64,000 bases of DNA from Thermomicrobium sp. 4228-Ro (lineage in GTDB: Bacteria; Chloroflexota; Chloroflexia; Thermomicrobiales; Thermomicrobiaceae). Positions 25,347 to 31,389 of the stretch are shown here, piece by piece. A program made the position numbers and the translations under genes. The first letter of the stretch is position 1; every line of letters begins with the position of its first letter. The stretch is from NCBI RefSeq assembly GCF_026241205.1, contig NZ_JAPFQM010000001.1:806001-870000 (forward strand). The letters run 5' to 3'. The notes beneath the pieces were generated by a model. That model had not been told where the DNA came from and made no database searches. It saw only the letters and a list, made by a program, of their open reading frames with translations.

Positions 25347-26582
25347 TCAGCCGCTCGTCTCGCCATGACGACGCGCGAGCCAGCGCGCAGCCGCATCTTC
25401 CCAGCCGCTCACCCTGCCATCCTGAACGACCAGTACCGCCTCGTTGCCAGCGAGTTCCCCAGCCCCTTCCGTGAGGCGTTCTCCTGCGACCGCCGGGAGC
25501 ACGCGTGGATGCACACGTCGCAAGATCGCAGCCCGTCGCAACGCCCGCTCCACGTCGTACCGATCGACCACGGAGGAGACTTCGATCGCGATCCAAACCT
25601 CGCCGAGCTCAGGCATGCTCCGGGGTACTCCGCGCACGAGGAGATCGATCGCGAACGCCTCTTCAGCTTCCCGCTCGGTCAAGAGCTCGACAAGCTGGTC
25701 GCTCACGTCTCCCGCTGTACCCGGGCGAACACGCCGGAGAAACCGACCGAAGATCGCACTGGCACGCTGGTGGTAGCGCAGTTCGAGCGTGATCCCAACG
25801 TACTCGTCCAGGCGACTCCGTACGAAACGAAGTTCCTGAGTCAGCTCCGCGATCTGGGCCTCCACCCGTTCCATCCGTTGGGTCAAGGCCGCGATCTGGG
25901 CCTCCACCCGTTCCATCCGCTGGGTCAAGGCCTCGATCTGGGCCTCCACCCGTTCCATCCGCTGGGTCAAGGCTTCGATCTGCGCCTCCACCCGTTCCAT
26001 CCGCTGGGTCAAGGCTTCGATCTGCGCCTCCACCCGTTCCATGCGAACCGTCAGGTCATCGACCCGCTGCGTCAGCGCTGCGATCTGCGCCTCGACCCGC
26101 TCCATCCGGACAGTCAGGGCTTCGATCTGCGCCTCGACTCGCTCCATGCGCACCGTGAGGTCATCGATCCGTTGCGTCAACGCTTCGATCTGGGCTTCGA
26201 CCCGTTCCATGCGGACCGTCAAAGCTTCGATCTGGGCTTCCACTCGCTCCATCCGGACGGTGAGTGCTTCGATCTGGGCCTCGACCCGATCCATCCGCTG
26301 GGTCAAGGCCTCGATCTGCGCCTCCACGCGGGTCGCCAGCGCGTCGATGCGCTGGCCAAGTCGCTCGATCTGTTCGTCGATCCTGCGCTGCCGCTCGGCA
26401 GCGGCCTGCCGCTCACCTTCCAGCGTCCCGATCAACCGCTCGAGCGCCTCCTGGATCCGGTGCACGGTCGGAGGAAGATGCAGAAACTCCTCGCCGAGCA
26501 GGACGTCGAGCAACTGGCGACGGAACGCCTCGTCCTCGCGGATCCGACGGATCAGTTCGTCCGAAAGTCGATCAGCAGCCAC
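25347..26582 (-). CDS. Coiled-coil repeat protein with C-terminal nuclease-like domain
   Basis: This 411-residue cytosolic protein starts MAADRLSDELIRRIRED. Residues ~60-260 are a long coiled coil built from eleven VEAQI units. Nine are 14-residue repeats (for example VEAQIEALTQRMER) and two are 21-residue repeats with an extra DDLTVRMER heptad. The C-terminal ~130 residues (ELRYHQRASAIFGRFLRR, LVELLTEREAEEAFAIDLLV, EVWIAIEVSSVVDRYDVERA) resemble the PD-(D/E)XK-like tail of DUF3782-type proteins. That likeness is weak and the catalytic set is not proven. The repeats are nearly identical at DNA level, suggesting recent expansion. Confidence 0.8.
   Translation of the reverse strand: MAADRLSDELIRRIREDEAFRRQLLDVLLGEEFLHLPPTVHRIQEALERLIGTLEGERQAAAERQRRIDEQIERLGQRIDALATRVEAQIEALTQRMDRVEAQIEALTVRMERVEAQIEALTVRMERVEAQIEALTQRIDDLTVRMERVEAQIEALTVRMERVEAQIAALTQRVDDLTVRMERVEAQIEALTQRMERVEAQIEALTQRMERVEAQIEALTQRMERVEAQIAALTQRMERVEAQIAELTQELRFVRSRLDEYVGITLELRYHQRASAIFGRFLRRVRPGTAGDVSDQLVELLTEREAEEAFAIDLLVRGVPRSMPELGEVWIAIEVSSVVDRYDVERALRRAAILRRVHPRVLPAVAGERLTEGAGELAGNEAVLVVQDGRVSGWEDAAARWLARRHGETSG
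25855..26335 (-). repeat. Tandem 42-bp repeats encoding two-heptad coiled-coil units
   Basis: Copies of a 42-base unit (14 codons) run through the middle of the coiled-coil gene, with two units expanded by one heptad (21 bases). Neighbouring copies near 25860-26040 are almost identical, so they probably arose by slippage or unequal crossing-over. The units are in phase with the protein and are coding repeats, not a CRISPR. Confidence 0.85.
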
Positions 26583-30006: not shown

Positions 30007-30441
30007 ATGGCCGACCAGACACGCGAGCACCTGGAGAACCGAGCCCGACACCCCCGGATCCCTGTTCCGCACGCCCGCCGTGGCGACCTCGTCGTCGATC
30101 TTCCGACCGAGATCCTGGCCCGATTTCTCCACGCCCTCGCCGATCCGACGCGCCTGCGCATTCTCGAGCACTTGAGTCGTGATGGGGAACTGCACGTCAG
30201 CGCGCTCGTCGAGCGGCTGGGCCAGCCGCAAGGGCGCGTTTCGGCCCATCTGACCTGCCTGCGCACCTGCGGGCTCGTCCGTGTCCGCCAGGACGGAAAG
30301 TACCGGTACTACGCGCTCGCTGATCAGCGGATCCCGGCGCTGCTCGCTCTGGCTCGCGACCTCGCCCGCCCGAACGCAGCAGCGATCGCATCCTGCGCCA
30401 TCGGCACGCGCCACGATCCACCGGAGGAGACCGAACGATGA
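30007..30441 (+). CDS. ArsR/SmtB-family metal sensor, CmtR-like
   Basis: This 144-residue winged-helix repressor has the DNA-binding region from about residue 35 (ILARFLHALADPTRLRILEH) to the wing (VRVRQDGKYRYYALAD). In the recognition region the motif TCLRTCG places cysteines C84 and C88 four residues apart, and C130 lies in the C-terminal tail. This layout matches mycobacterial CmtR, where two helix cysteines plus one tail cysteine bind Cd(II)/Pb(II). It is the first gene of a coupled set: its stop overlaps the next start by 4 bp. It probably autoregulates. Metal specificity is inference. Confidence 0.85.
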   Translation: MADQTREHLENRARHPRIPVPHARRGDLVVDLPTEILARFLHALADPTRLRILEHLSRDGELHVSALVERLGQPQGRVSAHLTCLRTCGLVRVRQDGKYRYYALADQRIPALLALARDLARPNAAAIASCAIGTRHDPPEETER

Positions 30442-30659
30442 ACGAGCGTTGCGCGTCGCTCCTCGCACCCTGCCGGATCGGGTGGCTCCTCGTAGCATGC
30501 GCCCTCACGCTCTACAGTATCGCCACCCACCAGTGGTCGCTCCTGCTCGCCATTCTCGCTCCCCTCAGCGGTCTCCTCCTCGGCTCCGTGATCAATGGCC
30601 GAACGAGTCGTTGCGACGTGCGACTGACGAGCGGAGGCACGAGGCCCGTCGATGAGTGA
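30438..30659 (+). CDS. Small membrane protein in ArsR-CcdA operon
   Basis: This 73-residue protein has two hydrophobic segments (WLLVACALTLYSIA and LLLAILAPLSGLLLGSVI), cysteines at positions 5, 12, 20 and 58, and a basic tail. The family is not recognised. The start overlaps the ArsR stop and its end overlaps the CcdA-like start (8 bp), so the three genes are tightly coupled. It might pass metal or thiol groups to the CcdA-like protein, but there is no direct sign. Confidence 0.7.
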   Translation: MNERCASLLAPCRIGWLLVACALTLYSIATHQWSLLLAILAPLSGLLLGSVINGRTSRCDVRLTSGGTRPVDE

Positions 30660-31389
30660 GCTCCAGGCCTGGATCGCTTCCTGGCTCTCGGTAGTCGCGA
30701 GCTGGCTTCCTTTCGGATACAGCTTCGGTGCCGGCATGCTCGCCGCTGTCAATCCGTGTGGGTTCGCTATGCTTCCGGCCTATCTCGCCCTCTTTCTCGG
30801 TAACAACGAGGAGTCGACGACATCGGGAACCGCGCGACGATTGATCCGGGCAGCTGTCGTCGGGACGACTGTCTCGCTCGGCTTTTCCACGCTCTTCGTT
30901 CTCGCCGGTGTCATGGTCTCGCTCGGTGGGACGTTCCTCTTCCCGGTGATGCCCTGGATCGGCACGGCGATCGGCATCCTGCTCATCGTGCTCGGGGCAG
31001 CGATGTTTTTCGGCAAGGTCGCCCGGCCAGTCCTCTTCGAGCAGCTTTCCGATCGGCTCACCCGACGCAGCGAGCGCTCCATTCCCGCCTTCTACCTCTT
31101 CGGTCTTGCCTATGGTCTCGCCTCGCTCAGTTGCACGCTTCCCGTTTTCATGATCGCGGCCGGAAGCGCGCTGGTCAGCGGTGACGTCGCACGGGGCATG
31201 CTGCAGCTCGGCAGCTACAGCTTGGGTATGGCTTCGGTCATCGTGACGCTGACCTTCGCACTCGCCTTCCTGCGATTCGGACTCGTGCGTGCTGTGCGCC
31301 GTGCTGTCCCCTACGTGCAGACAGCGGCAGCAGCGCTCCTCATCTTCGCAGGCCTCACCATCGTGCTGTACTGGTCAGCCTATCGCTGA
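30652..31389 (+). CDS. CcdA/DsbD-type membrane thiol-disulfide transporter
   Basis: This 245-residue protein has six predicted membrane helices. The first redox cysteine is in the signature VNPCGFAMLPAYLALFLG, and the second in ASLSCTLPVFMIAAGSA, the two-cysteine pair that carries electrons across the membrane in CcdA and the DsbD core. In other bacteria such proteins support cytochrome c maturation or, near metal sensors, metal/thiol handling. Here the operon begins with an ArsR-type sensor, which favours the latter. No thioredoxin-like partner or heme lyase is adjacent. Confidence 0.88.
   Translation: MSELQAWIASWLSVVASWLPFGYSFGAGMLAAVNPCGFAMLPAYLALFLGNNEESTTSGTARRLIRAAVVGTTVSLGFSTLFVLAGVMVSLGGTFLFPVMPWIGTAIGILLIVLGAAMFFGKVARPVLFEQLSDRLTRRSERSIPAFYLFGLAYGLASLSCTLPVFMIAAGSALVSGDVARGMLQLGSYSLGMASVIVTLTFALAFLRFGLVRAVRRAVPYVQTAAAALLIFAGLTIVLYWSAYR

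Follow-up and report, generated by a model that had tools for sequence, protein, structure and literature searches.

A triad-type ArsR gene coupled to ccdA in Thermomicrobium: the probable regulatory and membrane part of a divided mer operon

Organization of the locus

The window (the whole analyzed stretch of DNA, 64,000 nucleotides) belongs to a 3.07 Mb Thermomicrobium-like genome (G000), whose nearest named loci come from Thermomicrobium sp. and from HR27/HR28. The reading of open reading frames shows three overlapping genes on the forward strand, arsR, a gene for a small protein, and ccdA (Table 1); arsR and the small gene are joined by an ATGA overlap at 30438, and the small gene overlaps ccdA by 8 bases. 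These coordinates agree with the original prediction of an ArsR gene coupled through overlapping codons to genes of a small Cys-containing membrane protein and a CcdA-type transporter. Four relative loci among the genome contigs searched repeat this three-gene arrangement and retain all three cysteines of the ArsR protein; counting the window, the order, which the prediction had proposed to look for in related genomes, is kept in 5/5 aligned Thermomicrobium-type loci. The rest of the seven relatives returned (L005–L007) are distant ArsR genes with other surroundings.

Table 1. Features of the ArsR–CcdA locus and its flanks (positions in the window)
Feature	Start	End	Strand	Description
Hairpin followed by T-rich stretch	29905	29948	+	Read by eye
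GTACACTT	29982	29989	+	Just 5' of arsR; includes the -10-like hexamer TACACT
arsR	30007	30441	+	ArsR/SmtB repressor, 144 aa; ATG at 30007, stop at 30439–30441; C84-X3-C88 at the recognition helix
Small gene	30438	30659	+	73 aa; predicted two-helix membrane protein (hydropathy); conserved P11-C12-R13 and C59
ccdA	30652	31389	+	DsbD_TM/CcdA-type membrane protein, 245 aa; sole cysteines C36 (NPCG) and C161 (SCTLP)
Peptidase_S51-like gene	31447	32271	+	PF03575; 57 bases 3' of ccdA; synteny marker shared with the mer operon of G365
MFS gene	32245	33525		Downstream neighbor
Cupin gene	33591	33914		Downstream neighbor

The element GTACACTT is common to the printed arsR upstream regions of the window, L001, L002, L003, L004, and L017 and, judging by its sequence, is a candidate promoter element of arsR. 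The hairpin further upstream, read straight from the sequence, is likely the terminator of the upstream gene. The Peptidase_S51-like gene, also found 3' of ccdA in L001–L004 and in G365, a genome of a sister genus, serves as a synteny marker and is not claimed as a working part. Elsewhere in the window, at 25347–26582 of the reverse strand, a 411-aa open reading frame has many near-identical RMERVEAQIEALTQ-type repeats and is a long predicted coiled coil.

The cysteine triad of the ArsR protein

Generally, ArsR proteins are repressors released by metal. The window protein belongs to this family by Pfam (HTH_5, PF01022, 4e-13) and NCBIfam (NF033788, 91 bits, cut-off 55), and its only cysteines are those at positions 84, 88, and 130. 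Among solved structures, CmtR (2jsc, 4e-13) is closest to it in sequence; C84 and C88 align there on the CLRGC motif, the alignment ending before the tail cysteine. In the fold search, 2jsc ranks 39th by E-value, yet has the top identity of the 50 matches listed (47%, 77 columns). The AlphaFold2 model (mean pLDDT 83.8) contains helices at 75–87 and 109–129 and places C84 inside the former, C88 just past it, and C130 directly past the latter. The cysteines of CmtR are numbered 57, 61, and 102 in PMC7863910, and equivalents of all three are present in the window protein: the helix pair is aligned, and the tail cysteine stands at +42 from the second cysteine, compared with +41 in CmtR. As anatomy, the predicted likeness to CmtR is hence fair, since 2jsc is the best match, the helix pair is aligned, and the model agrees.

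The three cysteines are invariant across all 16 regulators of one alignment and kept in 5/5 aligned Thermomicrobium-type loci, so their loss among orthologues, named by the prediction as counterevidence, is not observed. The C-X3-C pair with a cysteine at +42 is seen in 22/22 regulators examined from this locus type and from mer loci (5 from Thermomicrobium, 12 from other Chloroflexota, and 5 actinobacterial, plasmid-borne). Of the six ArsR-like places found in the window genome, L009 is the only one besides the window ArsR to carry the triad.

The identity of the metal does not follow from the triad, which is common to ArsR genes beside merA/merB, beside cation-diffusion transporters, and beside a cadmium-type P-ATPase. 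The +42 spacing is also seen in L101 and L103, both beside cation transporters, and in L009 of the window genome itself; L050 has the tail cysteine at +43, and L051 lacks it. The layout, which had been taken as a pointer to cadmium or lead, thus loses its value as such. CmtR of Mycobacterium tuberculosis (Rv1994c), which senses Cd/Pb according to PMC10961391, shares with the window protein the ArsR fold, the helix pair four residues apart, and a tail cysteine about 41–42 residues on; however, it differs in its tree branch and operon context.

In the 34-row ArsR tree, the window protein and its four relatives join the ArsR of the mer operon of G390, a second sister genus (99/79, just below the starred level), while CmtR falls apart from them in a starred clade (96/93) with L009, L101, L103, and L104. 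Its placement is good but not final evidence, because the CmtR sequence in the tree is a fragment of 81 residues and has a long branch. The NCBIfam CmtR model was tried as a discriminator and dropped: the window protein scores 63.1 bits, below the cut-off of 150, but the model does not separate the groups, because the ArsR proteins of mer loci (L097, L099, L100, L102; 59–65 bits) and L009 (61 bits) score about the same.

A CmtR-like Cd(II)/Pb(II) sensor, as suggested originally, with control over thiol/disulfide chemistry that counters damage by cadmium or lead, would be consistent with the closest solved structure, the aligned helix cysteines, the nearly equal spacing of the second and third cysteines, and the presence of the triad beside cation transporters. 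Yet CmtR clusters with L009 and not with the window protein, the orthologues within the family are located in mer operons, and the CmtR model score is far below the cut-off, although this score is shared by the mer regulators and L009. We therefore consider cadmium or lead sensing quite unlikely, and the assignment of these metals to the window ArsR is probably wrong. The gene after L009 encodes a P-type ATPase of the cadmium family (TIGR01512, 444 bits, cut-off 313.5), which has an HMA-like N-terminus; these two genes (L111:1315-3787, contig C1 of G000) are the likelier CmtR/CadA-like pair of the genome.

Another ArsR of the same genome (L012) contains an LCVC motif, which we take to be arsenic-type. 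Sensing of some other soft metal or metalloid (Cu, Ag, Zn, As) by the window ArsR, in a module functionally unrelated to MerA, would fit the fact that the triad does not fix the metal and that merA is not adjacent; it is highly improbable given the separate LCVC-type regulator, the separate CadA-type pair, and the presence in the sister operons of merA and, in G365, of a MerB-like gene.

Orthologues in mer operons of sister genera

Two sister genera of the family, represented by G365 and G390 and located via a ccdA search, have the same arsR and ccdA inside a mer operon, with the general order merA–arsR–small gene–TlpA redoxin(s)–ccdA. In G365, a MerB-like gene on the opposite strand comes first; after it stand a membrane gene containing CC, merA (whose product has an HMA-like N-terminus and a CC tail), arsR with the triad, merE, a TlpA-like redoxin gene, and ccdA. 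Next come genes for an S51 peptidase, an MFS protein (on the other strand), and a cupin. These three also neighbor the window locus, the G365 MFS protein and both cupins being matched by likeness of translations only. In G390, merA and arsR are followed by the gene of a CPC/CC protein, two redoxin genes, and ccdA. In G309, merA lies at one contig end, and redoxin genes with ccdA lie at another.

Trees place the mer copies of G390 and G365 nearest to the window arsR and ccdA. The window ccdA is orthologous to the mer-operon ccdA of G365 and G390 (starred clade, 100/99), and the closest ccdA genes outside the genus are those of G365/G309 and G390, all of the same family. The MerA tree is weak, as its L086 row is out of frame (six stops) and yields a long branch without meaning, and we draw little from it.

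MerA is encoded in the window genome (G000:C6:461911-463290, 533 bits, above the cut-off), on contig C6, while arsR is on contig C1; hence, the two do not form one operon there. The gene adjoining merA is presumably COX15/ctaA. MerA above the cut-off was found in 9/21 genomes searched, among them G126, G174, G182, G400, and G402 of the same genus; it was not found in G401, a genome that is 54% complete. The search for MerB by PF03243 gave no match in the window genome and one among 13 relatives (G309). An operator common to the arsR and merA promoters was sought by eye and by dyad scan and not seen; the comparison covered eight arsR upstream rows, six of them distinct (L014 duplicates L002; L015, of the same species sequence as L004, has an internal ATG as its anchor), and three stretches upstream of merA. 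The loci probably descend from one ancestral operon from which merA became separated in Thermomicrobium; alternatively, the operon may have been assembled in the sister genera.

The small protein

The small gene looks coding, the third codon position differing most in 9/10 pairwise comparisons, with a tie of positions 1 and 3 in the tenth (L001/L003). Residues P11, C12, and C59 of its product are invariant in 5/5 loci. The protein lacks the CPC motif, and no Pfam family reaches the cut-off for it. Its gene takes the position held in G365 by the gene of MerE, a protein that matches PF05052 (27.7 bits, cut-off 22.8); neither the small protein nor its four homologues match this family, and the hhalign profile comparison with MerE-like proteins is negative (probability 5.9). 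Following the Pfam and hhalign comparisons, MerE ancestry of the small protein was set aside as unproven.

ArsR and CcdA beside mer genes in Chloroflexota and on plasmids

In a sample of 400 Chloroflexota genomes, the CcdA type is present in 65, MerA above the cut-off in 74, and both in 20 (odds ratio 2.3, Fisher p = 0.006); 45 of the 65 CcdA-bearing genomes have no MerA above the cut-off. ccdA and merA are at most about 3 kb apart on one contig in half of the co-carrying genomes (10/20: G073, G150, G153, G158, G193, G233, G241, G276, G365, and G390). An ArsR with the triad is present in nine of 13 fetched merA regions, hand-picked as eight with CcdA nearby and five others (present in L076, L077, L079, L081, L082, L083, L086, L087, and L088; not in L078, L080, L084, and L085). 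The 1.5 kb flanks of 30 ccdA loci contain an ArsR gene by the Thermomicrobium model in six cases: four loci of Thermomicrobium (the window's included), G365, and G047. In G047, merA follows a MerR-type gene on one contig (L084:3713-5607), and a second contig (L038) has triad-type arsR with ccdA but no merA; this is a possible second case of merA separation.

Similar arrangements are annotated on actinobacterial plasmids. The C-X3-C...42...C triad is shared by the ArsR-regulated mer operons of Rhodococcus sp. WAY2 (pRWAY01), M. chubuense (pMYCCH.01), and M. marinum (pMM23). Those of WAY2 and M. chubuense continue after arsR, in one direction, with the gene of a short hypothetical protein, a redoxin gene, and ccdA, beside merA/merB; here the Thermomicrobium operon differs, as it has no redoxin gene and merA lies elsewhere. 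A Pseudonocardia plasmid carries a divergent version of the ArsR–redoxin–CcdA mer arrangement, and on the plasmids of M. marinum and Streptomyces arsR stands beside merA without ccdA. Ten ArsR records were opened from two plasmid searches: in the first set (n = 7), five are beside merA and two beside cation transporters; in the second (n = 3), two are beside cation transporters and one beside neither. Six plasmid CcdA records were opened among 75 matching ones; four are beside mer genes, and two are not.

In S. aureus, Leisingera, M. dioxanotrophicus, and Deinococcus, CcdA also occurs near mer genes, and the listed surroundings include no ArsR gene. The Staphylococcus plasmid mer operon (merR-TlpA-CcdA-merT-merA-merB) includes a CcdA of the same family; unlike the Thermomicrobium locus, it is MerR-regulated, not ArsR-regulated, and has a redoxin gene before ccdA. 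Its TlpA and CcdA genes are, we assume, the old ORF3 and ORF4 of pI258. The ORF3 and ORF4 of PMC6920998 are ars genes, irrelevant to those of mer.

In S. lividans and S. solfataricus, mer is repressed by ArsR according to a 2012 survey (PMC3466566), by which ArsR is absent from mer operons outside the phyla named, Chloroflexi not being one of them. Here, ArsR genes are found in mer operons of several Chloroflexota families. MerA in Chloroflexi was already known (PMC8261052, PMC3466566), and CcdA and TrxA are tabulated as "mercury transporter" in actinomycetes in PMC12195606. Our literature search, with subscription papers mostly outside it, gave PMC3466566 only for ArsR in Chloroflexi mer operons, no paper joining CmtR and CcdA, and none joining the mer operon with Thermomicrobi- names; three papers mention both mercuric reductase and Thermomicrobium.

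CcdA and its thiol partners

In the CcdA family, electrons are relayed between a redoxin and a pair of cysteines in the membrane. The window CcdA resembles other CcdA/DsbD_TM transporters in its Pfam match (DsbD_TM, PF02683, 35.0 bits, cut-off 27.1) and in having one cysteine in each half, C36 and C161, both invariant, in their NPC and SCTLP motifs, in 5/5 aligned loci; it differs from them in being coupled to an ArsR metal-type repressor and in having no adjacent partner redoxin, as no redoxin gene is present within the operon. Four TlpA-like places elsewhere in the genome match the G309 redoxin, one of them adjoining cytochrome c genes.

CcdA is the sole DsbD_TM protein of the window genome, which also contains a System I cluster (a ResA/CcmG-like redoxin and two Cytochrom_C_asm proteins) and in which ResB was not found; hence, CcdA may act in cytochrome c maturation as well, or even predominantly. 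Extended to the whole locus, this would mean general envelope thiol redox and cytochrome c maturation, with CcdA feeding CcmG, ArsR acting as a redox or thiol-reactive sensor, and the link to mer being historical. Such a role would agree with the lack of MerA in most CcdA-bearing genomes and with the case of G341, another genome of the family. There, ccdA is retained at a corresponding place, behind a thiolase-like gene and a small gene that in G365 stand before the mer genes, but arsR is missing and no MerA scores above the cut-off. However, a housekeeping CcdA would be unexpected under an ArsR with a strictly conserved metal-type triad, and in the examined set triad-type arsR with ccdA always marks a mer locus or its orthologue, with the exception of L038, whose genome in turn has merA on another contig under a MerR-type gene. 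On balance, we regard this explanation as unlikely.

A probable mercury-type repressor and its proposed function

Mercury is named here by context, as the sister-genus orthologues are inside mer operons and the arrangement on actinobacterial plasmids is beside merA. It is more likely than cadmium or lead, because the three genes fit the control-and-membrane part of a mer operon. The originally proposed coupling of an ArsR sensor to a CcdA-type protein stands, while cadmium or lead as its metal gives way to the evidence of the sister-genus orthologues. The three-cysteine layout alone does not reveal the metal, and a "cadmium-type" sensor is reassigned to mercury through comparative genomics. 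The locus thus probably represents the regulatory and membrane section left behind when merA was split off from a mer operon, with ArsR as an Hg(II)-type repressor.

In such a system, we infer, ArsR would repress its own operon until Hg(II), coordinated by the thiolates of C84, C88, and C130, made it leave the DNA; derepression would then yield the small membrane protein and CcdA. CcdA would carry electrons from cytosolic thioredoxin via C36/C161 to thiols outside the membrane, which in relatives would be those of the operon's TlpA redoxins and CPC/CC membrane carriers; in Thermomicrobium, the redoxin partner would come from elsewhere in the genome. Since CcdA would keep them reduced, the outer thiols could bind Hg(II) and pass it into the cell, to the MerA of contig C6, with which the locus would thus cooperate at a distance.

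Several observations count against a divided mer operon: merA is not adjacent, no shared operator was seen, and an adjacent redoxin gene is missing; the small protein has neither a detectable relationship to MerE nor a CPC motif; and the CcdA family is not mercury-specific, given the 45/65 genomes without MerA, G341, and the 2/6 plasmid CcdA genes away from mer.

The findings raise the question of why CcdA is present in mer operons of Staphylococcus, Actinobacteria, Deinococcus, a Leisingera plasmid, and Chloroflexota. CcdA might itself be a mercury carrier, C36 and C161 moving Hg(II) across the membrane as a bis-thiolate and not electrons only. This would account for the recurrence of ccdA in mer operons of unrelated phyla and for its retention under a mercury-type repressor with the adjacent redoxin gone and the small protein devoid of CPC; we nevertheless hold it to be very unlikely.

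Cysteine-rich proteins of related mer operons

A membrane protein with an N-terminal and a C-terminal CC is encoded directly 5' of merA in G182 and G365, and its C-terminal part is seen in G390 (L069:3162-3782; L074:1767-2348; upstream of merA in L068). The two such proteins scanned have no Pfam match; they are possibly an undescribed MerT-like carrier. One mer redoxin of G390 (L068:6532-7431) ends in vicinal cysteines (NGCC), and the redoxins of L081 and L082 end near GCC; this tail is possibly mercury-binding.
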